Assembly: GCF_000708265.2 (NCBI RefSeq)
Contig: NZ_JCKI01000002.1
Location: 248,001 to 312,000 of the forward strand
Origin: Pedobacter sp. R20-19
GTDB lineage: Bacteria > Bacteroidota > Bacteroidia > Sphingobacteriales > Sphingobacteriaceae
Reading direction: 5' to 3'
Length of the DNA: 64,000 nucleotides
Below the pieces are notes generated by a model. That model was given only the letters and a program-made list of their open reading frames with translations, was not told the DNA's origin and searched no databases. The position numbers and the translations under genes are program-made. Positions 10,014-56,260 of this stretch are shown here, one piece after another. Positions within the stretch are counted from its first letter, which is position 1. The number at the start of each line of letters is the position of its first letter.

Positions 10014-10021
10014 CAGCACAA

Positions 10022-15821: not shown

Positions 15822-15832
15822 TCGAACTCAAC

Positions 15833-17230: not shown

Positions 17231-17249
17231 ACACAACACACAATTATAA

Positions 17250-17280: not shown

Positions 17281-17289
17281 GAAACTCAG

Positions 17290-42440: not shown

Positions 42441-42459
42441 ATCGGATTTTTGTAATAGG

Positions 42460-42495
42460 AGAGGCTTTGGAGTTTAATTCTAAGCCTCTTTTTTT
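42460..42495 (+). terminator. Intrinsic terminator
   Basis: AGAGGCTT / AAGCCTCT, 8 perfect pairs with a 14-nt loop, merging into an 8-T run. Ends the gene at 41889. Confidence 0.85.
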
Positions 42496-42575
42496 AGTTT
42501 CTATCCACTTATCAATGCCTTTTTCCTGTTAAGGTTAATATCGGGAATTTATGAAGATAGAGTGGCTAAATGCTG

Positions 42576-43397
42576 TTATCTGGTTACAGTAAAAATAAGC
42601 ACGGCTAAGTTTACTACGACTAATAATGGTTGTAAAATATTATTTAAACTTTGTAATTTATCGCTGGTTGCAGCACTTTTTGTAGGTTGTAATACGATAA
42701 TGTCATGATTCTGAAGGATTAGTTTTTTACTGGCTAAACTATTGATGTCGTTTAGGTTCACATAAATTAATTCCGGATTTGCACGGTCACCACGGATAAT
42801 TTTTAAGGTTTTCGGGTCTGCTGATTTGCTGATTCCGCCAGCTTCACCAATAATATCAATCAAGGTGGTATTATCACGTTCTAGCAAGAAATTTCCTTGC
42901 TTGCCAAATTCACCCAGTAACGTTACTTTAAGATTGACTACGCTAAGTTCTATAATGGGTTCTTTTAATAGTTTAGTTTTATAAATATCCTGGATTTTAA
43001 TGGCTGCTTCTCGTCGGCTTAATCCGGCAACTTCAATCTTACCAATGGCGGGTAAATTCACTTTACCGTCTAAATCTACAGGATAAGAAAGCACATTTTG
43101 TATACCACCTTGCGCATTTTGGTTATTATTGGCACCGGTATTTGCAGAACTGCCAGTTGTTGCACCAAATTCAAAATTTTGAACATTTCGAATGGCCAAC
43201 TGATCATTCACCTTTATTTTATAGTAGGCATCGCTAATGCCCTGATCATTTACCACATAAACCTGCTTAATCGTGTCAGTTACAATATCTGATGGGGCAT
43301 TAAATAAGGTGCGTTCTTTACGAACGCCACAGCTGGCAAGAGATACAATTATTATACTAAGGAACAGAAAGTTGAAGCGTGATTTTAGATATGGCAT
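42576..43397 (-). CDS. Polysaccharide export outer-membrane lipoprotein (Wza-like)
   Basis: A 273-residue polysaccharide biosynthesis/export protein. A lipoprotein signal ends in VSLASC (Cys near residue 23). The Poly_export domain (~55-150) includes YKIKVNDQLAIRNVQ and SYPVDLDGKVNLPAIGKIEVAGL, and an SLBB-like domain follows (KVTLLGEFGKQGNFLLERDNTTLIDIIGEAGGIS). A C-terminal hydrophobic helix (PLLVVVNLAVLIFTV) could be the outer-membrane-spanning segment. It forms or gates the exit channel for an exopolysaccharide. No Wzc-type kinase gene is adjacent. It is divergent from the first of the six small sorted proteins. Confidence 0.93.
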   Translation of the reverse strand: MPYLKSRFNFLFLSIIIVSLASCGVRKERTLFNAPSDIVTDTIKQVYVVNDQGISDAYYKIKVNDQLAIRNVQNFEFGATTGSSANTGANNNQNAQGGIQNVLSYPVDLDGKVNLPAIGKIEVAGLSRREAAIKIQDIYKTKLLKEPIIELSVVNLKVTLLGEFGKQGNFLLERDNTTLIDIIGEAGGISKSADPKTLKIIRGDRANPELIYVNLNDINSLASKKLILQNHDIIVLQPTKSAATSDKLQSLNNILQPLLVVVNLAVLIFTVTR

Positions 43398-43827
43398 AAC
43401 AATGGCTAATATGTTTCAAAAGTCTAAATGTAGCACAAAAATACAATTTAATATTTTTTTAGTGCAACATGCAATGCTAACTGATGGTTACAGATTTTTA
43501 CATGACAGAATTCTTTACTTAATGAAATTTTTAGGCACATGATTTTATAAAGTCCTTGAAAAACTGAGATTTAATTCTTTTAGTGTTATTAATAGCAACA
43601 AGTATGGCCTTGTTTAAATTGCAAATATAAACCACTTGACATTTATCAATATGTAGGTTGTTTGTATGATAAGTAAGCCTTAATTTCGTTTATTTGTATT
43701 GTAAAATTTTGATAAGGTAAATTACTATCGTTTATTCGTTTTTTAATTTCTCAATTTAAATTTCTGAATAATATTCAGTTGTTAAAGGATAGTTGATATT
43801 AAACATGCAGACGCAGTGTACGGCAAC
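43398..43827. other. Long non-coding region left of the first sorted-protein gene
   Basis: 430 bp, very AT-rich. It holds the Wza-like gene promoter and, from about 43630, sequence resembling the region 44675-44760 upstream of the second gene (shared CACTTGA.ATTT.TCAA and TTTGTATGAT motifs). This shows that the two leaders arose by duplication. No gene is supported. Confidence 0.5.
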
Positions 43828-43920
43828 TTAACTTTCATTTTTTGCGACCATATTTTGCTTAAGGCGGTATAACAGTGATTGCCCCCTTTTGTAATCATCC
43901 CTAATAAATACTTATTGTAG
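43828..43920 (+). promoter_or_regulatory. Conserved ~93-bp leader element, copy 1
   Basis: Shared with 44786-44874. A 20-nt block (43828-43847, starting TTAACTTTC) and a 34-nt block (43887-43920, containing TAATCATCCCTAATAAATAC) are identical in both copies, while the bases between and around them differ. AATAA-ATAC-TTATT in the second block can form a small stem. It lies ~180 bp upstream of the start codon. Confidence 0.6.
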
Positions 43921-44098
43921 TTACGTAATCGGTTTCCTCTACAGAAAACTTGATTCAATGTTTCAATGGATTATATATCATGCTTTGGTATATCATCCGG
44001 ATTGAATCCAATAAGTAATCCAAATTATTTTTTTCTTAGGATTTTTTTGTGACTGTTCATCCCACAGATAACGCAATTAATCAGTTTAACAATGTGGA

Positions 44099-44545
44099 AT
44101 GTTATTACTTAACAAAACAAAAAAGCATGTGTATAGTATGCTAATCAGCTTATGTGTATGTGCCTTATTTAGTCAAAATGTACATGCAGCGAATGGTTGC
44201 CGATACCAGGGAAGAGTTTATTACAATCGGGCTACCAATCCGCCAAACAATAAATATGAGTATTATACTAATGAGTCTTGGATTCAATTTTCATCAAATA
44301 CCAGCTGTAATTCTGTCGGCAATCAAAGCGCTACTTATGTACTGAGTAGTACTGTTACAAATAGAACTGCAAAAGGTGGGAGATGTTATGTGAATTATGC
44401 AAATACTTATACTATTGGTTCAGCCGTTACCTTTCCTCGAACATATCAATGCCCTATCGATAACCTGATTATTTACCTCATGATTGCTATATTGCCCTTA
44501 GTATACTACTCCTTCAGAAAGCAGTTTTTAATTAAAGTTAAGTAG
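44099..44545 (+). CDS. Small four-Cys secreted protein with CPIDN-helix-RK C-terminal sorting tail (1 of 6)
   Basis: A 148-residue protein of no family I can name. The signal peptide ends near residue 30 (QNVHA). The mature part has Cys34 (in NGC), Cys70, Cys96 and Cys118, then the tail CPIDN, a ~19-residue hydrophobic helix (LIIYLMIAILPLVYYSF) and the basic end RKQFLIKVK. Cys spacing matches the gene at 45069 almost exactly (34/70/95/119), so the two are close paralogues with duplicated leaders. The tripartite tail resembles exosortase-type sorting signals, suggesting transfer to the cell surface after cleavage near the CPID motif. Neighbours are a Wza-like export gene on the left and more family members on the right. 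Confidence 0.8.
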   Translation: MLLLNKTKKHVYSMLISLCVCALFSQNVHAANGCRYQGRVYYNRATNPPNNKYEYYTNESWIQFSSNTSCNSVGNQSATYVLSSTVTNRTAKGGRCYVNYANTYTIGSAVTFPRTYQCPIDNLIIYLMIAILPLVYYSFRKQFLIKVK

Positions 44546-44785
44546 ATAAAGCTGGGGCAAATCAGAATTAAATCGGTTATCATTTTTATTTTACTAATTT
44601 ATAAAGACGTTGCAAATCTGATGTTTAACAATTTTATGCCTGTTTTATATAAATTATACTATATCTAGTATAAAGCACTTGATATTTGTCAACATATTAA
44701 GTATTTGTATGATATATCAGCCTTAATATGCTTTCATTTGTAAAGTGAATTTTAATTAGGAAAGCGCACGTATTAACTCCTCCAA
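44546..44785. other. Non-coding region between sorted-protein genes 1 and 2
   Basis: 240 bp without a gene. From about 44675 it is the diverged duplicate of the sequence left of gene 1. No terminator is obvious. Confidence 0.4.
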
Positions 44786-44874
44786 TTAACTTTCATTTTT
44801 TGCGAACATATTTTACAAAAGGTGTAACAACAGTACCACTTTTTGTAATCATCCCTAATAAATACTTATTGTAG
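44786..44874 (+). promoter_or_regulatory. Conserved ~89-bp leader element, copy 2
   Basis: Same two identical blocks as at 43828-43920 (here 44786-44805 and 44841-44874), ~195 bp before the start codon of gene 2. Between the blocks the two copies differ by substitutions and small indels, so the blocks themselves seem to be under constraint. Confidence 0.6.
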
Positions 44875-45068
44875 TGAAATCTTTATTCTTATTATCAATA
44901 AGGAGATTTCTGAGTTCAAATAGACAAATGTATATCATGCATTAGTCTGGTCTCAATTGAACTGAATAAGTAAGTTTTAATTTATTGTTTTTTAAATTTT
45001 ACACAGGATTTTTTTTGTAAACTGCAGATCCGGCAGGTTGCACAAAGATTCGATTTATTAGGTTCTTT

Positions 45069-45512
45069 ATGTTACCATTTAACAAAATGAAAAAGCTTTC
45101 GCTTAGGTCATTAGTTTTTACATTTTTCTTTTTAGTGTTTAGTCAGGTTACTTTTGCTACGCCGGGATGTAGATACCCACCTTACATCTTTTACGTCATT
45201 AATCAGTCCGCTCCGCAAGATGGTAAAGAATACTATACAAGGGATAAATATCAATTAGTTACTAGTACTGTTGACTGTAGTACGACTGCCAATCAAAACC
45301 TTAGTTATATAAAAAGCTCTGAAATTACACTAAGAAGTAGTACTATCGATTGTCGTACGTATCTTGGTGGTTCAAATGCTTATTATAGAGGTACCGCAAT
45401 AGAGTTTACCATCGTATATCATTGCCCTATTGATGATTATATTCCTTATATTTTGCTAGCCATACTTCCTGCTGCATTCTATTTCTCCAGAAAACGAATG
45501 GTATTTAATTAA
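45069..45512 (+). CDS. Small four-Cys secreted protein with CPIDDY-helix-RK C-terminal sorting tail (2 of 6)
   Basis: A 147-residue paralogue of the gene at 44099. The signal peptide ends near residue 30 (QVTFA). Cys34 lies in PGC, followed by Cys70, Cys95 and Cys119; the tail is CPIDDYIPYILLAILPAAFY, then SRKRMVFN. KEYYTRDKYQ aligns with KYEYYTNESW of the first paralogue. The four cysteines could form two disulfides in the periplasm. The C-terminal helix with flanking Asp-Asp and Arg-Lys marks it as a probable sorted or membrane-anchored protein rather than a free secreted one. No function is known to me. Confidence 0.8.
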   Translation: MLPFNKMKKLSLRSLVFTFFFLVFSQVTFATPGCRYPPYIFYVINQSAPQDGKEYYTRDKYQLVTSTVDCSTTANQNLSYIKSSEITLRSSTIDCRTYLGGSNAYYRGTAIEFTIVYHCPIDDYIPYILLAILPAAFYFSRKRMVFN

Positions 45513-46149
45513 CGAATGAAGATGTAGCTCTCTTAAAAGCTAGCCCGGTTATTTTAATTTGATAATCCGAATTGGATAAGAATTAATTGATTTTAAATGT
45601 TCATTTCATTAAAAACACCTCTAAAGGAGAAAAGTTAAATCTCCATTCAACTATTCGGTATAGGATGCTTAAACAGCAGGTTAATTATAATATAAATAGC
45701 CTGTTCAAATCATATTTTATGGCATATTATTAATCTAATTCGAATTAATACTGTTGAGTAGTTACGCACATCTGATACTGATTAAATATGAATTCAAATC
45801 TCTTTATGTAATGAATTTGATTTGTCACCTATATAGTTGTGCCATAAGTCCTTTTATAGAACTATGTATACCTTCCTTTATAAGCTACATATCTAAAACC
45901 TTTTTATAAAACTCGAAGGTTCTACTCTTATTATTTCGTAAATGTTTGAAAATATATATTAAAAATGTAACTGTAAAATGTCAAATAATAATAATAAATT
46001 AGTTAATTTTGTAGTATATTATACCATAGTATAATTATTGACAAAACTCATAAAAAGTGTATGATTTTTTAGATTTTCATGGTATTAAAAATGTTTTTAT
46101 TTACTTTTGAAGTATTTAAATCGTTTTAGTATCTACTTTCAATTTTTTT
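45513..46149. other. Non-coding region between sorted-protein genes 2 and 3
   Basis: 637 bp of very AT-rich sequence with no coding pattern. TACTTTTG at 46102-46109 is a likely -7 element for gene 3. No copy of the conserved leader element is present and no other structure stands out. Confidence 0.45.
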
Positions 46150-46557
46150 ATGCTGTTCCGTTTTTTTTATTTGTCTATTATTAGTTTGATAGTTTTTAGT
46201 TGCAAATTATTTGCGCAATCAGGTTCTGGGTGTTATGTTTCCTCTACAACAACTTTTGCGGTAACTTCAGTTGGTAATGCAGGTCCCGCTAATTCATCAG
46301 ATATAAGGCCTACTTATACTGGGTCACTTGCTTTAGCCAATAGTACTACCTGTCCGAGGGTGAAATCTTTTGGTAATAATAGGGGAGCCAATACCTGTTA
46401 TATCAGAACATCTAACTCAGCTGGCTTTACTTATACATCAGGAAATCTTTATGATTATGAAAGAGAAAACTGCCCTTTGGATGATTACATTTGGTTAATG
46501 CTTATAGCCATTGGCGGATTTGCCTTTACTGCACTTCGGAAATATCATTTGGCTTAA
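46150..46557 (+). CDS. Small four-Cys secreted protein with CPLDDY-helix-RK C-terminal sorting tail (3 of 6)
   Basis: A 135-residue protein. The N-terminal signal includes LIVFSC, which could be read as a lipobox (Cys18), but the Ala-Gln after residue 21 also suits signal peptidase I and matches the siblings. The mature part has Cys28 (in GSGC), Cys68 (TTCPRV), Cys83 and Cys108. The tail is CPLDDYIWLMLIAIGGFAF, then RKYHLA. Apart from this frame of features it is unlike the first two paralogues; CPR at the second Cys recurs in the fifth gene. Ser/Thr-rich between cysteines. Function unknown. Confidence 0.78.
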   Translation: MLFRFFYLSIISLIVFSCKLFAQSGSGCYVSSTTTFAVTSVGNAGPANSSDIRPTYTGSLALANSTTCPRVKSFGNNRGANTCYIRTSNSAGFTYTSGNLYDYERENCPLDDYIWLMLIAIGGFAFTALRKYHLA

Positions 46558-47096
46558 TCTTTCGCAGCGTTTCTGAGTTATTATTAGATCATATGTGCAA
46601 GATATGATCAATTATAGATTGCTCTTAAGCAACCTCCTATTCGGTAAATTCTTTTAAATTGTGTGATGAAATCCTCATCTTATCTTGCTATAAATTCTCT
46701 TTCTTAACTATTACCTTTCTGGATGATATAAGTATTATTCGCTATCAAAATTGCAACCTGATTTTCTTACGCATGCCTACACCTATACATGCTATATAAC
46801 TAAAAATAATAATGTTTTAACCAGGTTTTATTTGGCTATTTAATCATTATTTGTGGTATAATTTAACAAGATTACGATGATATTTTATCAGTGAACAAGA
46901 TGAATAAAATTCGCATCTAAATTTTTTTGTAAAAATTATGTTATTGATATAGATCAATAATTCTAATATTGTTTTTCAGGACTTAAAAATTTTAAAAAAT
47001 CGTTTTAGAAGAAATAGGAGTTGGTTTTTTTGGAAAAAAGTATTATGCCAAAATTTTAAATTATTCAATTTTAAGCTGATTAGGAGGGTTGTTCAT
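46558..47096. other. Non-coding region between sorted-protein genes 3 and 4
   Basis: 539 bp, AT-rich, with no gene or repeat that I can support. Confidence 0.4.
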
Positions 47097-47127
47097 TTTG
47101 TTCATATAACTGTTTTGAATACTTTTG
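47097..47127 (+). promoter_or_regulatory. Consensus promoter of sorted-protein gene 4
   Basis: TTTG (47097-47100), exactly 19 nt, TACTTTTG (47120-47127): a full match to the Bacteroidota housekeeping promoter. It predicts a short (~20-25 nt) leader and supports the start at 47157. Confidence 0.8.
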
Positions 47128-47156
47128 TAGGGTAATTAATACAAATTTTATTCATT

Positions 47157-47789
47157 TTGAAGTTCTCAGCTCTTAACATCTCGCAACAATCAGTATCAAT
47201 TGGAAACCCATTTTATCAACTAACAAATCATATTTATAAATGGGTTAGTTCAAAGCATAAATCAATTGGATTATTGATTATAATGCTATCACTAAATACT
47301 AAAAAATCTGATGCTCAGATTAGTGGAAACGGCTGTGATTTTGGCGGGCGTATAGCTATTCAATATTTGGGTTCTGCAACGTATTATGGTAATTCAAATG
47401 ATGTTGTCGAAGTATATAGCACATCATCTGCAGTTCCGATCAATAAAGGAAATGGAAAGGGGTACGATTGTGATGCGATAAATGATTACGATGCGTTTCA
47501 AGTTTGGGATCCATCCATACAGCCATATGGCGCAAATAGAACTGTTCCGGCTAGTCATGATATCAGGAGAAATCCATCATCTCGCCAGCATGAGTGTGTG
47601 GTTGCATCATCACGTTATGCTACACCGGATGGCGAAGGAACAATTGTTGGCTATACATATAAAGACCCAAATAATTGCACTTCTGCACGACCTAATAACC
47701 TGCCTTTAGATGATTATTTGCCATTTTTGGTGTTAATGAGCGTAATGATCTCTTTACCATTTATTATTAAAAATAGCATTTTTATTTAA
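47157..47789 (+). CDS. Four-Cys secreted protein with LPLDDY-helix-K C-terminal sorting tail (4 of 6)
   Basis: A 210-residue, longer member. I begin it at TTG 47157, which fits the promoter just upstream. The signal peptide is unusual: ~35 polar residues precede the hydrophobic core SIGLLIIMLSL, with cleavage near DAQ (residue 54). Cys60 lies in GNGC, then Cys105, Cys147 and Cys174. Here the fourth Cys is 8 residues before the motif LPLDDY (182-187), followed by a helix (LPFLVLMSVMISLPFII) and a Lys. The start could also be an internal codon nearer the hydrophobic core. No known fold; the features match the other five. Confidence 0.72.
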   Translation: MKFSALNISQQSVSIGNPFYQLTNHIYKWVSSKHKSIGLLIIMLSLNTKKSDAQISGNGCDFGGRIAIQYLGSATYYGNSNDVVEVYSTSSAVPINKGNGKGYDCDAINDYDAFQVWDPSIQPYGANRTVPASHDIRRNPSSRQHECVVASSRYATPDGEGTIVGYTYKDPNNCTSARPNNLPLDDYLPFLVLMSVMISLPFIIKNSIFI

Positions 47790-47790
47790 T

Positions 47791-48172
47791 CCGACTTACG
47801 AAGTTTCAAAGGGCAGTGTGATGGGAAACTTCGTAAGTCTCCATGTTTTTCAAATCAGCTATTAAACTGGCGAAGTTCTGCCACGCTGCTTGCCTTTAAA
47901 ACTTCGCAAGTTTCTAAAACCCGACTTACGAAGTTTAGTTGGGTGGTGTGAAAGAAAACTTCGTCAGTCTCCATATTTTTCAAATCGGCTATTAAACTGG
48001 CGAAGTTCTGCCACGCTTCTTGCCTTTAAAACTTCGCAAGTTTCTAAAACCCGACTTACGAAGTTTAGTTGGGCAGTGTGATGGGAAACTTTGTCAGTCT
48101 CCATATTTTTCAAATCGGCTATTAAACTGGCGAAGTTCTGCCACGCTTCCGGCCTTTAAAACTTCGCAAGTT
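47791..48172. repeat. Three tandem copies of a 130-bp palindromic repeat
   Basis: Units start at 47791, 47921 and 48051 (each with CCGACTTACGAAGTTT), an exact 130-bp period; the third is cut short at about 48172. Each unit has two stems built on the same core: ACTTACGAAGTTT / AAACTTCGTAAGT (perfect in copy 1, 47794-47806 and 47826-47838) and GCGAAGTT / AACTTCGC (47870-47877 and 47900-47907). Copies differ at only a few positions. There is no gene inside; the 63-residue frame over it is a by-product. Confidence 0.85.
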
Positions 48173-48242
48173 AATTCTAAATCTTAATTACTGTTCATAG
48201 TTGTTCAGTGTTTTATTCGTAAGTGGTTGATGTTGAATAAAG

Positions 48243-48262
48243 TGAATGGATTATTCCATTCA
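48243..48262. promoter_or_regulatory. Short perfect palindrome upstream of sorted-protein gene 5
   Basis: TGAATGGA-TTAT-TCCATTCA, 8 perfect pairs, ending 34 nt before the ATG. Possible operator or leader hairpin. Confidence 0.4.
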
Positions 48263-48295
48263 TCTCTGCAGTAGTTTTGGTTAAAAATCAAGTTA

Positions 48296-48712
48296 ATGCT
48301 CCAGAAATTCGCTTTTTTAATTTTGCTATTATCTACCTTCACCTCGGGTCTTTTTGCCCAATCAACAGGTTGCTTGATTGGAACTAATGTATTTACAAAT
48401 TTAAATGGGTATGTAAATGTTACAATTGTTGTTTCGGTTAGCGTTAGAAATTTTGATAATCCAAGCTTTAGTACCCTTACGAATGCTTGCCCCAGGGCGG
48501 TTAACGTTACACCTGTAACTGGTCCATTAACGCTAACAGCATGTGTGGCAAACGGAAATCTACTTTCTATAGGTAGTACGGTAACGTACACTCGTTTGGA
48601 TCCACCTGTTCAGTGCGATTTGGATGATTTAACCCTTCCATTTGCTGCAGCTGCAGGTACATTAGGCTTGTTTTTCATCCGGAGGCGTAAAATTATAGAT
48701 AGGTTATACTAA
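48296..48712 (+). CDS. Small four-Cys secreted protein with CDLDDL-helix-RRRK C-terminal sorting tail (5 of 6)
   Basis: A 138-residue protein. The signal peptide ends near residue 22 (GLFAQ). Cys26 lies in TGC, then Cys65 (NACPRAV), Cys83 and Cys107, followed by the tail CDLDDLTLPFAAAAGTLGLF and the strongly basic RRRK. The core between cysteines is Val/Thr-rich and looks beta-stranded (NVTIVVSVSV). It is the member whose end looks most like a classical sorting tail, with an Ala/Gly-rich helix and an Arg cluster. Its stop codon overlaps by 2 nt the stop of the convergent HEPN-type gene. Confidence 0.78.
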   Translation: MLQKFAFLILLLSTFTSGLFAQSTGCLIGTNVFTNLNGYVNVTIVVSVSVRNFDNPSFSTLTNACPRAVNVTPVTGPLTLTACVANGNLLSIGSTVTYTRLDPPVQCDLDDLTLPFAAAAGTLGLFFIRRRKIIDRLY

Positions 48713-49518
48713 TCTCTTACATCCATCTGCAAACTTAAAACATCAACTAGTTTATTAAGCAAGGTGCTAATCTTATCTTGCAAATAAGCCAAATGTTCAG
48801 GAGCTATTTTGTAATTATCATCATAGCGTGCACCAGTGTAAGCTTGCTGAAGCAATTCAAGCCATTTTAATTCTTTATTCTTTTTAATGTCGAAAATATT
48901 CTTAATTGCTGGCAGATAAAACCCAGCAACTTTTTGAAGTAAAATTAATTGATGACTTTTAGGTGCTCTTTCTTCATATAGTTTGATAATCAGACTAAAT
49001 GTCTGTTCACATACCTGATGAAGCATAAAAGCTGACAGTTGAAATTTGCCTTCCTTAAAATATACTAACGCACCTTCCTGAAAACTTTTGGCCTTTTCCA
49101 GTCCATGATGAATCACCATGGCAGAATGTGCCCGCATTTCAGATAATTTACATGCAGGCGTTTCAATCAATTCGTATTGCGGTGCAGATTGATATATACA
49201 ATGTTCGCGACGACAATAGCTGGAATAAAATAAATTGCCACGCGCTAACATATCATGCATGGTTCCATAAGAAAAATACCTGATTTCTATATTAATCTTG
49301 CCCAGGGCAATAAACTCCAGCATATTTCTTGTGACATCACTGGCCTGGTATTGAAAGCGGTCTAAAACCATAATCAAGGTGATGAGCCTGGTATTGTCCC
49401 TGCGCTGAAAAATATAGGCCAGCGGAATCAGATTAGTGATCAGTTCCAGCAGATGCTTAATCTGCTTTTGAGGAAGAGCAGCAAGGATTCTGTTCGTTTC
49501 CAAGGGGTTGAAGTTCAT
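48709..49518 (-). CDS. HEPN domain protein with degenerate nucleotidyltransferase-like N-terminus
   Basis: A 269-residue cytoplasmic protein. The C-terminal half (~150-265) reads as HEPN: ALVYFKEGKFQLSAFMLHQVCEQTF, SHQLILLQKVA, then LLQQAYTGARYDDNYKIAPEHLAYL, a typical end. The N-terminal half is placed where related proteins carry a minimal nucleotidyltransferase (IFQRRDNTRLITLIMVLD) but lacks the GS...DxD catalytic motif, so it is probably inactive. The HEPN RNase motif RxxxxH is not evident either. Its gene is 1 nt downstream of the gene at 49520, so the two form an operon. HEPN/NTase proteins often act in toxin-antitoxin or stress systems, but activity here is unproven. Confidence 0.75.
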   Translation of the reverse strand: MNFNPLETNRILAALPQKQIKHLLELITNLIPLAYIFQRRDNTRLITLIMVLDRFQYQASDVTRNMLEFIALGKINIEIRYFSYGTMHDMLARGNLFYSSYCRREHCIYQSAPQYELIETPACKLSEMRAHSAMVIHHGLEKAKSFQEGALVYFKEGKFQLSAFMLHQVCEQTFSLIIKLYEERAPKSHQLILLQKVAGFYLPAIKNIFDIKKNKELKWLELLQQAYTGARYDDNYKIAPEHLAYLQDKISTLLNKLVDVLSLQMDVRD

Positions 49519-49519
49519 C

Positions 49520-50704
49520 TTATCGGTTTATAAATGTTTCATTGTGAAAATGTAAGTATAACTTGTCTTCGTCAACCGCAACCAGTAATAAAGCAAGTTC
49601 CATGATTTTGATCAGTATTTCATATAAATCAAAGGCACCGCCTGTAGCTGGGGCAATATGGCCAGCTCTTGAACCACAATAACTCCATTCTTTTAAGTCT
49701 TCTCTGATGTTAGAAATGTTTTCAAGAGTAAGTAATGGTTGGAAAACATCAAGGGGGCTCTCCTTTTCATCTTCCTGCAAAGTTAAAATCTCGTAAGGAT
49801 CGTCCTTTTCCGGCGATGTATGGATGAGGTTCTGCAGGGCAAGCCAACTGGAAAAAAGATGGGGTTGTGCTGAAGCTGCAGTAGGCGTTGAGGTCGGAAT
49901 TTGATAGGCTGAGATAAGGTAACAAGCTTCCAGAAGCCGGGTCAGCTGGTCATGTAGGTATATAAAATCTGGTGGTGCCATAGTTAGGTTATTTCCTATA
50001 ACCGCTTTAAACCATGCTTTGAGCTGATCGCGATAACTGCCCAGGCTTTCTTCTCTGAAAAACTGAATAATTTGATAGTAAGGATTTTTTAGATATTCAT
50101 TTCTGAGTAAGGTTGGGCAGGTATCCTGAAAGTGACCAATTTTTATCACTATGCATTGCCGCTCTAATGCCCTCAATAATCGTTCATAGATCAGCCAGCT
50201 GGCTTCAATTAACCGTTTGGTGTTGCGATAGAGCGAATAAATGGAGGTATCAAAACCATCTGTGATGCCTTGCTCTAATGAATGGCTGAGCCAGTCATAA
50301 AGCAAACTTTTAGATGTAACCAATTGCTGTTCATCAAGAAAATTAAAGACTTTAAGTGGTTGCATTAATTCGTCATCAGTTAAATGCCGGGTTTGATCAC
50401 AATAGAGGTAACTGGTATAGCTGAGCATCTCTTCTGCTATGCTGGTGTGCTCAATTATTAAATTTTTAGCGGTTGATGTTTCTTCATTTAATGCAAATGA
50501 AACTTCATAAAATTCTACGAGGAGCTTATAAAAAAATAGCAGGTCAGACGGTGCATATTTAGGATCATCGGGCTGCTCTGTCAACATGAGTTCCAGCCAC
50601 TCATCCATAAAGAAAAGGTGGGTTGGCATACTTTTAAGTTCAAAAAATTTTTCATAAAATAAAAAGGAGGGATGCAATTGCAAATTGGTTTCAATACTTT
50701 TCAT
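49520..50704 (-). CDS. Hypothetical helical protein, operon partner of the HEPN protein
   Basis: A 394-residue protein with no signal peptide or membrane segment. It appears almost wholly alpha-helical, with many Leu/Phe/Tyr heptads (LLFFYKLLVEFYEVSF; LTRLLEACYLISAY) and few glycines. I recognise no domain. The segment PPDFIYLHDQLTRLLEACYLI near residue 240 is similar in style to conserved helical proteins of Sphingobacteriaceae. It lies 1 nt before the HEPN gene and is divergent from an S24-type repressor with 104 bp between. Together these look like a regulated two-gene unit of unknown purpose. Confidence 0.7.
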   Translation of the reverse strand: MKSIETNLQLHPSFLFYEKFFELKSMPTHLFFMDEWLELMLTEQPDDPKYAPSDLLFFYKLLVEFYEVSFALNEETSTAKNLIIEHTSIAEEMLSYTSYLYCDQTRHLTDDELMQPLKVFNFLDEQQLVTSKSLLYDWLSHSLEQGITDGFDTSIYSLYRNTKRLIEASWLIYERLLRALERQCIVIKIGHFQDTCPTLLRNEYLKNPYYQIIQFFREESLGSYRDQLKAWFKAVIGNNLTMAPPDFIYLHDQLTRLLEACYLISAYQIPTSTPTAASAQPHLFSSWLALQNLIHTSPEKDDPYEILTLQEDEKESPLDVFQPLLTLENISNIREDLKEWSYCGSRAGHIAPATGGAFDLYEILIKIMELALLLVAVDEDKLYLHFHNETFINR

Positions 50705-50808
50705 GAGCTTAATTTTAATTTTATTTACCTTGCGTGTTGCATAACAAAAATAATACTATAATTAAGCAATGCTAAATTTATTTCGTACAACTTATTAACA
50801 TTTTTCTC

Positions 50809-51459
50809 ATGACTGAATTAGATCGTTTTAAATCATTAATGGATATATTAAACTTTAGAACCCAAAGAGATTTTGCCGTTGCACTTAACATTAAGGATGG
50901 TTCTATGTCTGATATTGTGCGTGGTAGAGGAAACAGTATTTCTGCATTCATTAAAGATCGTTTAGCATACAGATTGAATGTTAATATTGAGTGGCTGGAA
51001 ACTGGCGTTGGAGAACCTCTAATGAAAAGCGGGCCGGTTATATCCGAAGCGAAAGAAGGTGTTCCGTACTTTGATATTAGTTTATCGGATTCAGATACAT
51101 TTATATTAATGGAAGAACAAGCCGAATACTTTGTAAATTATAAACCCTTTAATGATTGCACAGCTTATCTTCCGGTTTATGGCGATAGTATGTATCCCAA
51201 ATATGCATCTGGTGAAATCATTGCTATTCGGGAAGTAACTAATTTTGATGTATTACAATGGGGTGAAGCTTATGTTGTGATGACAGATGAAAAAGCAAAC
51301 TACTTACGAAGCATTAAGATGATTTATCAGCATGCTGATCCCGACAAACTTATTCTTCGTTCATCCAATCCAAATTTCAGGGGTGACACCATTATCAATA
51401 AAAGCAATATTACATCATTGTATATTATCAAAGGAAAAATAACAAGAAATTTAATTTAA
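50809..51459 (+). CDS. XRE helix-turn-helix repressor with S24 (LexA/CI-like) domain
   Basis: A 216-residue regulator. An N-terminal helix-turn-helix covers residues ~5-65 (QRDFAVALNIKDGSMSDIVRGRG), and a C-terminal S24 peptidase fold ~110-210. The catalytic Ser is present in YGDSMYPKY (residue ~126). Where LexA and CI have the Lys of the dyad (…VKR), this protein reads YLRSIK, so the Lys seems replaced by Arg and self-cleavage may be lost. Such proteins then act as ligand-independent or differently triggered repressors. It is divergent from the HEPN operon and is the obvious candidate regulator of it. Confidence 0.85.
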   Translation: MTELDRFKSLMDILNFRTQRDFAVALNIKDGSMSDIVRGRGNSISAFIKDRLAYRLNVNIEWLETGVGEPLMKSGPVISEAKEGVPYFDISLSDSDTFILMEEQAEYFVNYKPFNDCTAYLPVYGDSMYPKYASGEIIAIREVTNFDVLQWGEAYVVMTDEKANYLRSIKMIYQHADPDKLILRSSNPNFRGDTIINKSNITSLYIIKGKITRNLI

Positions 51460-51682
51460 TTCCTTTCAATATCATTCTCTTACTAAGACAGATATAACAA
51501 TTTTAATTTTAAAACATATTGGGAATATTAAGGTATATTAAATATTGTTATTGAATTGCGATTTCACTATATTTATCTTAATAAATTTAGTTGTTATGCC
51601 TGCTGATCTAATAGATTTGCTTAAAACAAATATTTCTTCGTTGTAAAACCAGCCTTTATCTAGTGGTATTGTTGCCAAAAAT

Positions 51683-52408
51683 TTGCATATTAGTGATAAC
51701 GGCAGTGGCGAATTAACGCTATATGGCGATTTCACCATCACCTTAAAAGTGTTAGATCTCACTACTAATGGTGCACCCAATTTAAATAGCCTGATGACTT
51801 TTACCCAGCAAGTGATTACCTCTAAGTTAAGGGGCGGTGGGTATAAGAGTGGAGTAATTTATTTTGAATATAATTCTTCAACCAAGTCATTTAATTTTCG
51901 AAAAAATCATACCTATTCCATCCGCTACAATTTTAATTGTGGTGTTAATGTTATACAGATTAATATGCTGAGTCAGTTAAAGGGGAACGATTTTGTATTG
52001 GCCGTAGTAGATAGTATTGGTCATCAGTTTACCGATCAATATGGGAAAAAGCACAATTCAGGGGGACTTGCCCAGAGAGATGGAGGACCAGCAGTTGTGA
52101 GTTACAATGAATGGAGAAAGAATAAATATATAGGTGTACACGAGTTTTTTCATACACTAGGTTTGGGAGACATTGAAGATCTTAGTAAAAAGGACCGGTT
52201 AATGTACCATCTAGGAGATAACACAAGTTATAATATATCTGACAATGAAAGAGGAGATATGATGAGTTTTCTTATGCGAAATATTAGCGACATGACAAAA
52301 GGCACTTATTCATACACAAACCTAAATTTTAACACATTAGATTTATTAAGAAGATTTTTAAAAGATACAACGAATGGTTTCAAATACAACAAGGCTAAGT
52401 TTAGGTAG
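51683..52408 (+). CDS. Metzincin-like zinc metalloprotease, possibly 5'-truncated
   Basis: The readable part is 241 residues. VHEFFHTLGLGD (His153, Glu154, His157, Gly160, Asp163) fits the metzincin pattern HExxHxxGxx(H/D) with Asp as the third ligand, and LMY near residue 173 fits the Met-turn. No signal peptide is seen. Upstream, the same frame runs back from 51683 to an ATG at 51596 but is broken by TAA at 51644, with protein-like sequence on both sides. Thus the gene may have lost its original start, or it may start near the TTG at 51683. Similar domains occur, as I recall, at the C-terminal end of large RHS-type toxins; that is recollection, not a search. The 3' end overlaps the next gene by 35 nt. 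Confidence 0.6.
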   Translation: MHISDNGSGELTLYGDFTITLKVLDLTTNGAPNLNSLMTFTQQVITSKLRGGGYKSGVIYFEYNSSTKSFNFRKNHTYSIRYNFNCGVNVIQINMLSQLKGNDFVLAVVDSIGHQFTDQYGKKHNSGGLAQRDGGPAVVSYNEWRKNKYIGVHEFFHTLGLGDIEDLSKKDRLMYHLGDNTSYNISDNERGDMMSFLMRNISDMTKGTYSYTNLNFNTLDLLRRFLKDTTNGFKYNKAKFR

Positions 52409-52784
52409 CATTCTACTTTTTATGTTTGTCGCCTGCATAAATGAGAACAAAATAAAAATAAAAGCACCAAAAAAAAATAGCCTGCCAGATTCTTGCAGGT
52501 ATTATGCATATGATGCCGGGCAAATAGTTTCTAACCTCAGTTGTTATAATTGCCATATCAGAAGAGGTGAAAGATTAAATAATATACCGTCTTTTGATGA
52601 GCTTGCAGCTATGGATAGTTTAAAACTTTTAAATTTTGTTTTTACTAAGAAACATAATGGTAATTACAGTATTAAAGGAGCATTCAAGACATCCAGAATG
52701 GATACACTAAGTGATTGCGAAATAAAAAGTGCAATTCGTTACATAAGAGATTATGGTAGAGATATTTCATTACCCAGCCAATAA
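52374..52784 (+). CDS. CxxCH lipoprotein, tandem copy 1
   Basis: A 136-residue predicted lipoprotein (signal LFMFVAC, lipid Cys near residue 22). The mature domain has the haem-attachment motif CYNCH near residue 58 and SRMDTLSDCEIKSAIRYIRDY near residue 108, where the Met and the closing helix fit a small cytochrome c. The first of three paralogues in a row. Its first 12 codons overlap the end of the metalloprotease gene in another frame. Its position suggests a role connected with the protease, for example as inhibitor or immunity protein; a redox role is the alternative. Haem binding is not proven. Confidence 0.75.
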   Translation: MVSNTTRLSLGSILLFMFVACINENKIKIKAPKKNSLPDSCRYYAYDAGQIVSNLSCYNCHIRRGERLNNIPSFDELAAMDSLKLLNFVFTKKHNGNYSIKGAFKTSRMDTLSDCEIKSAIRYIRDYGRDISLPSQ

Positions 52785-52789
52785 TAGTT

Positions 52790-53203
52790 ATGGTTTTAAA
52801 TATAATAAAACTAAGTTTCGGTAGTTTTTTATTTTTATTCATTGTGGCATGTGTAAATAAACCGAAATCCAAAGATAATATTGTAAGTAATAAAAAGATA
52901 CTTAAAGACTGCAGATATTATGCTTATGATGCTCAACAAATTGTTTCTAATCTTGGCTGTTATAACTGTCATGTTCGAACCAATGAGCGATTATTTGAAA
53001 TACCAACATTTAGCGAAATATCTATAATTGACAGTTTAAAACTTATAACATATGCATTTACTAAAAAGCATAAAGGTTGGTATGATAAAAGCGGAACTTT
53101 TAAAAAGTCAAGAATGGATACTTTAAGTGATTGTGAAATTAGAAGTGCCATTCGATATATTAAAGATTACAATAGGGATACTCCGCCCATGTCTAGCCAC
53201 TAA
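52790..53203 (+). CDS. CxxCH lipoprotein, tandem copy 2
   Basis: 137 residues, 5 nt after copy 1 and roughly 60% identical to it by eye. The lipobox is LFIVAC. CRYYAYDAQQIVSNLGCYNC-H and KKSRMDTLSDCEIRSAIRYI are conserved. The region between (ERLFEIPTFSEISIIDSLK) varies. The 416-bp spacing from copy 1 indicates a tandem duplication that included the overlap region: its 5' end still encodes GFKYNKTKFR-stop in the frame used by the protease C-terminus. Confidence 0.75.
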   Translation: MVLNIIKLSFGSFLFLFIVACVNKPKSKDNIVSNKKILKDCRYYAYDAQQIVSNLGCYNCHVRTNERLFEIPTFSEISIIDSLKLITYAFTKKHKGWYDKSGTFKKSRMDTLSDCEIRSAIRYIKDYNRDTPPMSSH

Positions 53204-53208
53204 TTGTT

Positions 53209-53613
53209 ATGGTTTCAAATATAATAAAGCTAAGTTTAGGTAGTATTTTGTTTTTATTTACTGCCGCTTGTCTAAATAAACCCAAATCAAAAGAGAATAC
53301 TTTGATTAAAAAAAAGCTAATCGATACCTGCAGGTACTATGCTTATGATGTTCAACAAATCGTATCTAATCTGGGGTGTTACAATTGCCATATTTTGGCA
53401 GGTAATAGATTAAATGAAATATCAACATTTGAAGAATTAGCTAAGATGGATAGCTTAAAACTGATCAATTATACCTTTACAAAAAAACACAAAGGATGGT
53501 ATAGTAAAACTGGATCATTTAAAACTGCGAGAATGGATACCTTAACTGATTGTGAAATAAATAATGTTATTCGTTATATAAAAAGATGCTGCAAGAAATA
53601 TCCCTATGCCTAG
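53209..53613 (+). CDS. CxxCH lipoprotein, tandem copy 3
   Basis: 134 residues, 5 nt after copy 2 and 419 bp from its start. The lipobox is LFTAAC and CYNCH is intact near residue 60; ARMDTLTDCEINNVIRYIK is conserved. The last ~10 residues (RCCKKYPYA) differ because of a small frameshifting indel relative to copy 2, whose DNA continues in parallel to the shared end CTAGCCACTAATT. It also encodes GFKYNKAKFR-stop in the second frame at its 5' end. Confidence 0.75.
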   Translation: MVSNIIKLSLGSILFLFTAACLNKPKSKENTLIKKKLIDTCRYYAYDVQQIVSNLGCYNCHILAGNRLNEISTFEELAKMDSLKLINYTFTKKHKGWYSKTGSFKTARMDTLTDCEINNVIRYIKRCCKKYPYA

Positions 53614-53625
53614 CCACTAATTACC

Positions 53626-53655
53626 ATGGTTTCAAATATAAATTTTCGGCATATA
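53626..53655 (+). pseudogene. Remnant start of a fourth lipoprotein copy
   Basis: ATGGTTTCAAATATAAA at 53626 repeats the first bases of copies 1-3 (spacing 417 bp from copy 3) right after the same CTAGCCACTAATT end sequence, and then similarity stops. Probably the residual edge of the tandem repeat. Confidence 0.6.
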
Positions 53656-53795
53656 TTAAGTATGATTCGTTATCTAAAGAATCATGTAATTGTAAACTGA
53701 TTTATAAATACTAATAACTGATTTTTTTATGTATGCTTAATACTTAAGTATTAAAATATTTTTTTTACATTCGGGTATGATTAATCCATTAGCTT

Positions 53796-54143
53796 ATGAA
53801 AAAGTTGTGCTTAATCATCCCTCTCTATCTCATCCCGTTTTTTGTTTTTGCAGAATATGGTTGTCTGGTTCCCGGCTACCCAGAGTTGCTTACTTATCAA
53901 AGCAACCCACCTGGAGGAATATATTCCAATACACCTGGCGAGATTTATCCTGCTGAAGGTTGCAAGTGGAATTTAGATCCATTACAACCATCGGCTGGTT
54001 GTATAGGGCATGGCAAAGCAGGTACAAAAGGAACCTATTATCAAGAATGCTCTCTTGATGATTTTATCCCGCTATTATTTATATTTACAGCTGGAATGTC
54101 TTTTTTAACCATACGTAAAAAAGCTTTCGCCACGCAACAATGA
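53796..54143 (+). CDS. Small four-Cys secreted protein with CSLDDF-helix-RKK C-terminal sorting tail (6 of 6)
   Basis: A 115-residue protein, the shortest of the family. The signal peptide ends near residue 19 (FFVFA). Cys23 lies in YGC, then Cys56 (EGC), Cys69 (AGC) and Cys85, followed by the tail CSLDDFIPLLFIFTAGMSFL and IRKKAFATQQ. The core is Gly/Pro/Tyr-rich. It is ~5 kb from the other five but keeps all shared features. Its TGA overlaps the ATG of the downstream glycosyltransferase by 4 nt (54140-54143), so the two proteins are translationally coupled, the best link between this family and glycan assembly in the window. Confidence 0.8.
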   Translation: MKKLCLIIPLYLIPFFVFAEYGCLVPGYPELLTYQSNPPGGIYSNTPGEIYPAEGCKWNLDPLQPSAGCIGHGKAGTKGTYYQECSLDDFIPLLFIFTAGMSFLTIRKKAFATQQ

Positions 54144-54883
54144 AAATATCCATTATTACCGTAGTTTATAACGGAGAAGCTTATCTTAAAGAATGTATCG
54201 AATCAATCATCAATCAATCTTATCAGGATATTGAATATATTGTTGTGGATGGCGCTTCTACTGATGGCACCCTTAAAATTATTGAGGGTTACCGGTATTC
54301 CATAAAACATTTTGTTTCTGAGCCCGATCGTGGTTTGTATGATGCCATTAATAAAGGTATTCAACTGGCATCAGGAGATGTAGTGGGAATTTTAAATGCT
54401 GATGATATGCTCGCCGATCGAAATGTGATTGCACAGGTAGCAAAAGCTTTTGCAAAACAGGCTGAAATTGAGGCCATTTATGGAGATCTGAACTACATCA
54501 GGCCATTAAATAATCAAATCATAAGGGCCTGGAAATCTAAACAGGCTGGCATACGTGATATAGCAAAGGGCTGGATGCCTGCTCATCCTACACTCTACAT
54601 CAAAAAGGATTTATTTAAGCAGTATGGTAATTATGCACTTGATATAGGAACTGCAGCTGATTATGACCTCATTTTAAGATATTTTTTTGTACACCACCTA
54701 AAGGCAGTTTACCTACCTATACTTATGGTTAATATGAGGATGGGGGGGCTAAGTAATAAAAACATATCCAGCCTGATTGGTGCTTTTGAAAATGATTACA
54801 AAGCTTTGAAAAAAAATCGAGTTCCAAACCCACTTAAGGTTTTAATCATGAAAAAGCTATCTAAAATTATACAATACTGGTAG
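54140..54883 (+). CDS. Glycosyltransferase family 2
   Basis: A 247-residue GT2 enzyme of the GT-A fold. The N-terminal block is SIITVVYNGEAYLKECIESI, with IVVDGASTDGT near residue 36, SEPDRGLYDAINKGI near 65 and the metal-binding NADD near 87; the acceptor region WMPAHPTLYIKKDLF lies near 137. No membrane helix, so it is peripheral and cytoplasmic. This subgroup (close to WcaA/WcaE-like enzymes) adds sugars to lipid-linked exopolysaccharide or O-antigen units. It is coupled to the small sorted protein upstream, and a WecA/MraY-type initiating transferase follows ~180 nt downstream. Confidence 0.92.
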   Translation: MKISIITVVYNGEAYLKECIESIINQSYQDIEYIVVDGASTDGTLKIIEGYRYSIKHFVSEPDRGLYDAINKGIQLASGDVVGILNADDMLADRNVIAQVAKAFAKQAEIEAIYGDLNYIRPLNNQIIRAWKSKQAGIRDIAKGWMPAHPTLYIKKDLFKQYGNYALDIGTAADYDLILRYFFVHHLKAVYLPILMVNMRMGGLSNKNISSLIGAFENDYKALKKNRVPNPLKVLIMKKLSKIIQYW

Positions 54884-55066
54884 TTTTTAGCCAGAATTTG
54901 CCTCAACTCCTTTTATTATTCGTTTTTGTTCACGCGTGTTTTAGGTTTTTTAATAGCAAAGGATTTAACAGGGCCTTAATATGAAAATAATAATAAGGCT
55001 TTATGAAAAAATACTATTACAATTATCAATTTAAAGAATAAAAAGAACAAATAAAAGCTACAATGA

Positions 55067-56191
55067 TTGTTATCTTTGTTAAAACAGTTCCCCATTTTGT
55101 TTACAAACTTTTTAACAACTACTCCAGAATTATTCTATGGTGCAATATTTTTATTGTCGCTAATACTGGTGATATTTAGTATTCCATCCATTATTCATGC
55201 TTCTTTAAAATACAAGCTTTTTGATGTTAGCGATTTGCATCGTAAAAGTCATGCAGAAAATATATCAAGGCTTGGCGGTTTATCAATCGTTTCGAGTTTT
55301 ACCATTTGTACATTATTATTTTCAGCATTCATTAGTTTTAAAGAAGCTAATTTTTTAATTGTTTCCTGCATCATTTTGGCAGGTTTAGGTTTAAAAGATG
55401 ATGTTTATGGCACCAACACCAGTACCAAATTTTTACTGCAATTAATTGTTGCCTCTATACTTGTTTTTTTTGGAGATTTCAGGCTTACCAGTTTGTATGG
55501 GGTGTTGGGTATAAATGAAATTAATTACGTGGGTGGAGGCATATTTTCTATTATTTTAATAATCTTTTTAAATAATGCCTTTAACCTAATTGATGGTATT
55601 GATGGTTTAGCTGGAACCATCGGCATTCTGGCCAGTTTAACTTTTGGTGTGTGCTTTGCTATCATGCATCAACTGCCTTATGCCTTTATTGCCTTTGCTC
55701 TTGCTGGTGCCATTGCTGGCTTTTTAAAATATAACTGGTTTCCGGCTAAAATATTTATGGGTGATACAGGCGCATTAATTATTGGCTTAACCACAGCTGC
55801 ACTGGCAATTAAATTTATAGAATTGAATAAATTTACTGGAGCCAATAAACCCGCCTTTTATTCTGCACCAGCCATTGCGGTTTCCATTTTAATTGTTCCA
55901 ATCTTCGATTCTCTTCGCATTTTTACCGTTCGCATTTTAAAGAAAAAATCACCATTTCTTGGTGACCGTAACCACATCCACCACAGGCTTGAGGATTTAG
56001 GTTTTAGACCCGATAAAATTGTAATATTAACGGTAATTTTAAATTGTATTGCCATGTTTAGTACCATTATTTTACAGCATATGGGCAGTTTTTTATTAAT
56101 CATTCTTTTAATCGGAATCTGTATGATATTCAATTTGCTGATTTCAAGGCAGCTTACCAAACAGTCTCGTTTGCTAAGCGTAAATAAATGA
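55067..56191 (+). CDS. WecA/MraY-type undecaprenyl-phosphate sugar-1-phosphate transferase
   Basis: A 374-residue polytopic enzyme (about 10-11 membrane helices) that transfers a sugar-1-phosphate from a UDP-sugar to undecaprenyl phosphate, starting glycan assembly. Key blocks are GLKDDVYG near residue 112 (the DD of the metal site), NAFNLIDGIDGLAG near 170, FMGDTGALIIG near 230 and the loop GDRNHIHHRLEDLG near 300. The start is uncertain: the frame has no ATG before the membrane core, so I use TTG 55067; an ATG at 55063 is in another frame. HIHHR points to the WecA/TagO branch rather than MraY. Probably part of the exopolysaccharide set with the upstream GT2. Confidence 0.88.
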   Translation: MLSLLKQFPILFTNFLTTTPELFYGAIFLLSLILVIFSIPSIIHASLKYKLFDVSDLHRKSHAENISRLGGLSIVSSFTICTLLFSAFISFKEANFLIVSCIILAGLGLKDDVYGTNTSTKFLLQLIVASILVFFGDFRLTSLYGVLGINEINYVGGGIFSIILIIFLNNAFNLIDGIDGLAGTIGILASLTFGVCFAIMHQLPYAFIAFALAGAIAGFLKYNWFPAKIFMGDTGALIIGLTTAALAIKFIELNKFTGANKPAFYSAPAIAVSILIVPIFDSLRIFTVRILKKKSPFLGDRNHIHHRLEDLGFRPDKIVILTVILNCIAMFSTIILQHMGSFLLIILLIGICMIFNLLISRQLTKQSRLLSVNK

Positions 56192-56232
56192 AGGCAGAAT
56201 TTACGAGCAAGTGGTAATCTGGAAATAAACAT

Positions 56233-56240
56233 TAATTTTG
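56233..56240 (+). promoter_or_regulatory. -7 element of gap
   Basis: TAATTTTG fits TAnnTTTG and lies 20 nt before the gap start codon. No good -33 element is visible. Confidence 0.45.
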
Positions 56241-56260
56241 CGCTCTAAAATTTTAATAAC

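Follow-up and report, generated by a model that had tools for sequence, protein, structure and literature searches.

Several described systems resemble the one analysed here. PEP-CTERM proteins and EpsH (XrtA) are described as having a tripartite tail, an exosortase with Cys, Arg and His, an exopolysaccharide locus and variable secreted carriers (PMC1569441). In Flavobacterium johnsoniae, deletion of xrtF impairs surface colonisation and biofilm formation, and that paper leaves the XrtF substrates to future work (PMC10936215). The Cys of the MYXO-CTERM signal is invariant and needed, according to a third paper (PMC11980579). NCBIfam also holds models of the exosortase XrtY (NF046083) and of PID-CTERM tails (NF046080); searches of an open-licence library turned up no publication about XrtY, its substrates, PID-CTERM or a Pedobacter tail/XrtY system. 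How exosortases recognize their signals is, to our knowledge, an open question in the field.

The window analysed here is a stretch of 64,000 nucleotides from Pedobacter sp. R20-19 (contig NZ_JCKI01000002.1, positions 248,001 to 312,000), in which genes for six small secreted proteins lie among glycan genes (Table 1). Sequence comparison across genomes suggests that their tails are probably a C-terminal sorting signal of XrtY, the one clear exosortase of this genome. The sequence-only reading had described six open reading frames, each with a signal peptide followed by a Gly-Cys, four Cys in the mature protein, and a tail in which [IL]-D-[DN] precedes a helix and basic residues; all were found at the starts it gave. 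In gene order from 44099 to 53796, the proteins are 148, 147, 135, 210, 138 and 115 residues long. Judged by eye from the translations, 6/6 begin with a signal peptide, which is hydrophobic and closes in an A-x-A-like site. Inspection also places a Gly-Cys a few residues past the A-x-A site in the six proteins, which raises the question of a lipobox, and a count by eye from the Cys of this Gly-Cys to the motif gives exactly four Cys in each. The C-terminus of all six is, by inspection, a tripartite tail of [CL]-[PSD]-[IL]-D-[DN], a hydrophobic stretch and Arg/Lys. The protein encoded at 47157 has Leu in place of the motif Cys, its fourth Cys lying 8 residues upstream of the motif (CTSARPNNLPLDDY); the actual start codon of its gene possibly lies downstream of the TTG.

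Table 1. Tail-protein genes and adjoining glycan genes in the window
Feature	Gene	Tail	Strand	Basis
Small secreted 4-Cys protein, tail CPIDN + helix + RK	44099..44545	44444-44530	+	ORF, profile match
Small secreted 4-Cys protein, tail CPIDDY	45069..45512	45417-45503	+	ORF, profile match
Small secreted 4-Cys protein, tail CPLDDY	46150..46557	46465-46551	+	ORF, profile match
Small secreted 4-Cys protein, tail LPLDDY	47157..47789	47694-47780	+	ORF, profile match
Small secreted 4-Cys protein, tail CDLDDL	48296..48712	48608-48694	+	ORF, profile match
Small secreted 4-Cys protein (MKKLCLIIP... type), tail CSLDDF	53796..54143	54042-54128	+	ORF, profile match
Wza-like polysaccharide export protein, divergent from tail genes	42576..43397		-	Pfam Poly_export; synteny
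Family 2 glycosyltransferase, overlaps end of sixth tail gene	54140..54883		+	Pfam Glycos_transf_2
Polyprenyl-phosphate sugar-1-phosphate transferase family	55067..56191		+	Glycos_transf_4

A 29-column profile built from the six tails recovered the six themselves and no others in the 5.0-Mb genome (weakest E 2.9e-12, next match E 0.307), so the resemblance of the tails exceeds chance. The six whole proteins gave no match at E<=10 to 18950 NCBIfam models, their tails alone gave one chance-level NCBIfam match (E 0.2), and the best Pfam match (E 0.022) was below cut-off. The T9SS sorting-domain models of NCBIfam and Pfam had no match among the six proteins, and the family profile had none in the PDB. 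Two PHROGs families without known function matched weakly (E 0.0071 and 0.0085). Other CTERM models matched a few of the 58 relatives described below weakly, LPxTATN being the best (E 0.0039, one member). In the region 42000-56500, no RNA families were found and promoter-like sites stayed at chance level (25 found vs 28.9 expected). An AlphaFold model of the 45069 protein, computed from a six-row alignment (pLDDT 47), gave no fold for the mature part; its C-terminal helix, residues 120-146, is among the best-scored parts of this otherwise poor model.

The six proteins had been read as having little shared sequence, which holds only in part: with relatives added, 58 members including the window's six align as one diverged family with the Gly-Cys, two inner Cys, a Gly and C-P-L-D-D-Y. 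This Cys-rich family is fast-evolving. The counterpart of the 47157 protein in the related genome G094 is 72% identical and that of the 48296 protein only 33%; the 53796 protein has counterparts 83% identical in G094 and 45% in G038. Among 80 tails, chosen by the tail profile so that motif counts are biased towards it, the Asp is present in 80/80 and the motif Cys in 64/80. The latter count bears on a reading in which the motif Cys is the key, as in MYXO-CTERM, this Cys being lipidated and the tail removed by a CPBP-type protease and not by XrtY. The Cys stands directly before the motif in those 64 tails, and MYXO-CTERM itself needs its Cys (PMC11980579). However, the 16 motifs without Cys all have a Cys 2-8 residues upstream, and of the 72 proteins counted, namely those of the 80 with a Gly-Cys anchor, 68 have an even number of Cys. 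The motif Cys therefore fits a disulfide partner better than a lipidation site, and we consider this reading very unlikely. In the four proteins with an odd count, the anchor is visibly wrong for L046 and L053 and placed late for L255; L063 is apparently truly odd. Identity with MYXO-CTERM itself was rejected, since the Cys is not invariant.

The sequence-only reading had seen no exosortase gene in the window and had proposed looking for one in the rest of the genome. XrtY was found at G000:C6:72171-72683, outside the window and on a different contig from the tails, and is the only exosortase-family match over cut-off in the genome. It scores 245.5 bits on NF046083 (curated cut-off 160) and 52.6 bits on the XrtF model (cut-off 90). 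Beside it lie XYAG1 (NF046085; 596 bits, cut-off 400) and the XrtY-associated Wzy (NF046084; 678 bits, cut-off 420), and the locus is a canonical XrtY glycan locus. A new enzyme type was rejected because XrtY explains the system; of the 'possibly undescribed type' proposed earlier, the tail variant is new and the enzyme family is one already named. Against PDB sequences, XrtY had only two chance-level permease matches (E 0.41).

The tail profile was then counted at three taxonomic levels. Its refined version, A3, matched 3/385 phylum genomes at E<=1e-3 with at most 21 candidates scored per genome; all three belong to the genus and none of the 382 genomes outside it matched, so a tail that is merely hydrophobic is not enough for a match. 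In 201 genomes of the order, the six-only profile already found 46 genomes at E<=1e-3, 44 of them with XrtY. A3, which was trained on tails from the very order genomes in which it was counted, found the tail in 49/201 at that threshold and in 1/91 of those without an XrtY match. A looser A3 threshold of E<=0.01 gave 55 genomes (49 with XrtY), and profile A2 at E<=0.1 gave 84, many without XrtY. Within the genus (75 genomes), the tail occurs in 46/61 genomes with XrtY and 1/14 without (Fisher 3e-6, a value that overstates independence because enzyme and tail match mainly through a single event in evolution, one clade). In genome G077 a tail is present, but neither an exosortase nor a wza ortholog nor a close match to WcaF was found; the tail gene there lies almost at the end of its contig.

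An XrtY tree was built from 107 of the 110 genomes with a match in the order sample, leaving out G086 and G128 (broken by stops) and G181 (a fragment); four of the 107 rows (G054, G090, G113, G156) lie far below the XrtY cut-off. One clade, here called clade A, has 100/99 support, a stem of 1.04 and 45 enzymes, all 45 from tail genomes, and tail genomes make up 1/62 of the remainder. Tail matches are thus not scattered without relation to a sorting enzyme, an outcome that had been named as adverse to the idea: 48/49 tail genomes have an XrtY match, and the tails follow a single clade. PID_CTERM occurs in 29/62 genomes outside clade A and 0/45 within it, and 33/62 genomes outside have neither tail type at E<=1e-3. 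Residues C120, R161, H182 and H183 are kept in at least 95% of both XrtY groups and in the four outlying rows. Residue 181, adjoining the His pair, is Tyr in 45/45 clade A enzymes and Asp in 53/62 others; a model of the Pedobacter psychrotolerans protein (pLDDT 67) was judged too weak to place it.

None of the 61 XrtY-bearing genomes of the genus has both PID_CTERM and the new tail at E<=1e-3: PID_CTERM is found in 14 of the 15 that lack the tail and in 0/46 that have it. Plain PID-CTERM membership was rejected, as there is no PID_CTERM match in the window's own genome (E<=10) or among the 58 relatives. The tails could still be processed by XrtY as ordinary PID-CTERM members that the NCBIfam model does not score. 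Both tails have a P-[IL]-D core, one tail each of G002 and G192 matches PID_CTERM weakly (18.1 bits, E 0.02), and a 4-Cys protein of G030 scores close to the cut-off of 26 (26.1 bits in one scan, 23.5 in another) and also matches A3 at 4e-9. This explanation is possible but doubtful, as 0/58 members match PID_CTERM at E<=10 and the 0/46 vs 14/15 split coincides with the long-stem enzyme clade. G030 also departs from the tail-clade match, with tails VPLDDY and VPLDNY, an XrtY outside clade A and Asp at the 181 column. A relationship to named P-I-D tails, suspected from the start, is borne out by the G030 protein scoring with both models and by short proteins in G139 and G065 that resemble PID carriers and end in the new-type tail.

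Pfam families agree with the earlier description of a Wza-like gene and two glycan-assembly genes framing the tail set (Table 1), the last of which is conserved in G094 and G192. In G094, G038 and G192, wza starts a long run of glycan genes that ends with XrtY and WcaF, and most relatives that carry the tail have its genes next to wza and XrtY 24-45 kb away on the same contig. Among the matches listed, the nearest tail is 62-6213 bp from wza (median 789) in 45/49 tail genomes; the count is without G065 (tail place not among the matches listed), G127 and G144 (tail among the matches listed on another contig) and G077 (no wza match). This proximity would suit a C-terminal helix that is a plain membrane anchor of a family beside a glycan locus, hitchhiking with XrtY, as would the fact that one diverged family of 58 proteins carries nearly all tails. 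A plain anchor, however, needs no fixed motif, yet the Asp is invariant in the profile-selected tails. In addition, subsets of the same glycan genes flank XrtY in the 15 genus genomes with XrtY and without the tail, indicating that the tail follows the enzyme clade and not the mere presence of the locus. The match also persists where the genes are unlinked: in the window's own genome they are on two contigs, and in G144, from another genus, XrtY stands among unrelated genes, as does the one tail gene whose neighbourhood was read. Finally, a 78-aa protein ~0.6 kb from the clade A XrtY of G139 ends in CPIDDYVPLL and a helix, placing the tail on a different short scaffold. We consider a plain anchor improbable.

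The conservation of the tail, its co-occurrence with XrtY, the match to one clade, synteny, the conserved active-site residues and the even Cys number together favour sorting by XrtY. The precursor would be exported by Sec, lose its signal peptide and fold with paired disulfides. XrtY, through Cys120, Arg161 and His182/183, would recognize the tail directly and cut at or near the Asp motif. The small protein may then move on, either unattached or coupled to a lipid or glycan made by the same locus, with the surface or the exopolysaccharide as its probable destination. In clade A, enzyme and signal would have changed together, the P-I-D-G-G of other XrtY genomes presumably becoming C-P-x-D-D-Y. 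In our reading, the tail is probably a PID-CTERM-like signal that has been rewritten for one subclade of XrtY and is carried by a Cys-rich family. The chances seem to us about even that this represents a natural specificity switch, in which an XrtY subclade and its signal were co-rewritten, Tyr for Asp directly before the His pair is one candidate determinant, and the proteins delivered are a fast-diversifying family of small surface proteins with disulfide bonds, associated with one exopolysaccharide. An exosortase-type signal tied to an exopolysaccharide locus, as originally supposed, is supported by the place of XrtY in a glycan locus and by the tails tracking one subclade.

Our study connects a family of rapidly changing proteins with an exopolysaccharide locus and gives clade A XrtY a concrete putative substrate set, unmarked in the window's proteins by the 18950 NCBIfam models. 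Two signal types are split between two groups of one enzyme subfamily in one genus, with much operon context in common, so that swaps of tails and enzyme residues can test recognition directly. The genome's XrtY, XYAG1 and Wzy pass the cut-offs of all three named models; the difference is that this XrtY falls into a strongly supported subclade whose putative substrates carry another tail. PID-CTERM shares the P-[IL]-D core, helix, basic end, small secreted carriers and XrtY genomes. However, its motif is P-I-D-G-G and that of the window C-P-[IL]-D-[DN]-[YF], its model misses the window's tails, and its carriers are mostly 60-100 aa among the matches listed, whereas the window's 4-Cys carriers are 115-210 aa. 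MYXO-CTERM/myxosortase has a motif with Cys, a helix and a basic end in common with these tails and differs in that 16/80 of the tails here lack the motif Cys. XrtF is likewise a Bacteroidota exosortase but of another subfamily than XrtY, and its deletion phenotype offers a lead for XrtY. With PEP-CTERM/EpsH, the Pedobacter system has in common the tripartite tail, Cys/Arg/His, exopolysaccharide locus and variable carriers; it differs in tails without a PEP motif, another exosortase subfamily and six putative substrates in one cluster.

Translation of the six tail genes bore out the sequence-only reading: each encodes a protein with a hydrophobic N-terminus, a Gly-Cys, four mature cysteines and a motif-helix-basic tail. 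NCBIfam returned nothing for the proteins at E<=10, and their Pfam matches were weak and all below the cut-off. A 29-column profile built on the six tails (A2) retrieved exactly these tails from the 5.0-Mb, 15-contig genome of the strain (E 3e-15 to 3e-12), and the next match had an E of 0.307. Among 80 distinct tails, chosen by profile, the motif Asp is kept in 80/80, and Pro, Tyr and Cys are each kept in 64/80. As read from the tail listing, each of the 16 tails without a motif Cys carries one 2-8 residues upstream. Counted from the Gly-Cys up to the motif, 68 of 72 proteins have an even number of Cys. From these sequences, we infer that the cysteines may form disulfides, and we take the Asp core, not the motif Cys, as the predicted sorting signal.

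The earlier statement that the window holds no exosortase gene is correct for the window, yet an exosortase is present on another contig of the genome (C6). It is the single match over the cut-off for Pfam Exosortase_EpsH, the second lying far below (E 0.108), and the single exosortase match for TIGR04178. NCBIfam identifies it as exosortase Y (XrtY; 245.5 bits, cut-off 160), and its closest counterparts are those of other Pedobacter (P. psychrotolerans at 93%, P. petrophilus at 88%). Its neighbors include XYAG1 (596 bits, cut-off 400), an XrtY-associated Wzy-like protein (678 bits, cut-off 420), a WcaF-type acetyltransferase and a GT2. The GT2 and XrtY ORFs overlap in this genome, and the two are a single fused protein at loci L152, L156, L159-L162, L166 and L169 of several genomes. 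The fusion is consistent with a working link of glycan synthesis to sorting. Loci L106-L108 encode XrtY proteins similar in length to the fusions.

In three other genomes (G094, G038 and G192) the entire locus lies in one stretch, with the tail genes divergent from wza, the Wza-like polysaccharide export gene. Past wza, the order is Wzc-like (AAA_31), NusG-like, asparagine synthase, ABC exporter, glycosyltransferases, Wzy, XYAG1, GT2, XrtY and WcaF, as assigned by similarity to the strain's own genes and by Pfam on its genes or those of G094; the large AAA_31 protein after wza is read as Wzc-like. In our strain this run is split between wza on C2 and wzc on C6, both inside large contigs. Among the tails listed, the one nearest to wza is 62-6213 bp away in 45 of 49 tail genomes (median 789), and in 41 of those 45 the contig also carries XrtY, at 24-45 kb from wza.

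The tail and XrtY occur together. Of 201 evenly sampled genomes of the order, 110 gave an XrtY match, which was over the cut-off in 95. At E<=1e-3, A2 found tails in 46 genomes, 44 of them with XrtY (those without are G077 and G153). A refined profile of 53 rows (A3) found 49 at this threshold, 47 from Pedobacter plus G030 (genus g6) and G144 (genus g3), and 48 have an XrtY match. At E<=0.01, A3 found 55 genomes, 49 with XrtY; the six gained (G001, G080, G093, G096, G102 and G112) have weak single matches. G077 is the only A3 tail genome lacking an XrtY match. Its contig ends just beyond the tail gene, it gave no exosortase and no wza match at 1e-40, and in place of WcaF it has only 26-31% identical acetyltransferases, suggesting that the locus was lost or left unassembled. 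Among 385 genomes sampled across the phylum, 3, all Pedobacter, have the tail, and 11 have XrtY at E<=1e-30. The main proposal of the sequence-only reading, a predicted exosortase-type sorting system, holds along with its six-protein observation.

Two signals divide the Pedobacter genomes with XrtY. The new tail is present in 46 of 61 and absent from 15; PID_CTERM, the NCBIfam model of a P-I-D-G-G type tail, matched 14/15 of the latter versus 0/46 of the former at E<=1e-3. G043, the remaining one of the 15, has neither type at this threshold, and one tail each in G002 and G192, among the 46, scores weakly for PID_CTERM (18.1 bits, E 0.02). Subsets of WcaF, GT2, XYAG1 and Wzy adjoin XrtY in all 15 tailless genomes; the split therefore cannot be put down to presence of the locus by itself. 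It follows the clade of the enzyme. In a tree of 107 of the 110 XrtY matches, 45 enzymes, all from tail genomes, form clade A (support 100/99, stem 1.04), and the 62 outside it include one from a tail genome, G030. PID_CTERM was found at E<=1e-3 in 29 of the 62 non-clade genomes and neither type in 33. The tree suggests essentially one origin for the enzyme-tail match, so small co-occurrence P-values overstate independence. G144 is a useful independent point: it has a clade-A enzyme and four tail matches, with XrtY among unrelated genes, as is the one tail gene of the four whose surroundings were read.

Residues C120, R161, H182 and H183 are conserved in clade A and in other XrtY. Ten positions differ sharply between the groups, including 181, directly before the His pair, which is Tyr in 45/45 clade-A enzymes and Asp in 53/62 others. 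G030 has new-type tails yet Asp at this position, so recognition cannot depend on residue 181 by itself. A four-Cys protein of G030, ending CNVPLDDYVWLLF, matches A3 (4e-9) and scores near the PID_CTERM cut-off (26.1 bits in one search, 23.5 in another). Short proteins also bridge the signals. G139 encodes a 78-residue protein ~0.6 kb from its clade-A XrtY, ending CPIDDYVPLL plus a helix; G065 has one with CDPDLDPFC and PLDDN, beyond WcaF from XrtY; and in G105, whose XrtY falls outside the clade, a PID_CTERM protein carries CDPFLDPFC and PLDGG. By eye the scaffolds of these short proteins are alike, which suggests that more than one scaffold has had its tail change along with the enzyme. In 39 loci read as carrying clade-A XrtY, from tree placement or BLAST with the strain's enzyme (3-20 kb each, one without an intact XrtY match, some duplicates), such genes were found only in G139 and G065. 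A similar ~285-residue protein adjoins the PID_CTERM short genes in six Pedobacter loci (L175, L176, L179, L183, L185 and L193); it gave no Pfam match in L175, the one tested.

The tail proteins evolve fast. Between our strain and G094, wza is 90% identical, but identity falls to 83, 72 and 33% for the three tail proteins that have a counterpart; no gene of the G094 stretch has 44099, 45069 or 46150 as its best match. The upstream blocks of 44099 and 45069 are 75-84% alike, and their coding parts 52% at the DNA level. A 26-nt element of these upstream regions occurs in the window as two exact copies, and its 18-nt core was absent from the loci of the other genomes compared. Part of the island between the tail genes has counterparts in G094, and one of the three tandem paralogs matches Cytochrom_C weakly (E 0.0024, below the cut-off).

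Features of the tail-gene region and of the XrtY locus in the strain
Feature	Location	Remark
wza	window 42576-43397 (-)	C2
Related upstream copies of 44099 and 45069	window 43544-43921 and 44598-44875	40-nt block 95% identical
130-bp tandem repeat, 2.9 copies, 91% matches	window 47791-48172	gap between tail genes 47157 and 48296
Island: HEPN-domain protein, unassigned 394-aa protein, S24/CI-type repressor, HExxHxxGxxD metalloprotease-motif protein	window 48709-52408	between tail genes; protease motif by eye
Three tandem paralogs, lipoprotein-like N-termini, C-x-x-C-H haem-binding motif	window 52374-53613	by eye; between tail genes
XrtY	G000:C6:72174-72605	extent of the Exosortase_EpsH match
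wzc (L288)	G000:C6:98683-101118	

We found no paper on XrtY or PID-CTERM among the open-licence papers searched. In F. johnsoniae, XrtF mutants are impaired in surface colonisation, and that study leaves the substrates for future work (PMC10936215). The model of motif, enzyme and polysaccharide was set by the PEP-CTERM paper (PMC1569441). The system described here pairs one subclade of XrtY with a rewritten, predicted signal of its own, carried by small secreted proteins that are rich in Cys and belong to a diversifying family.
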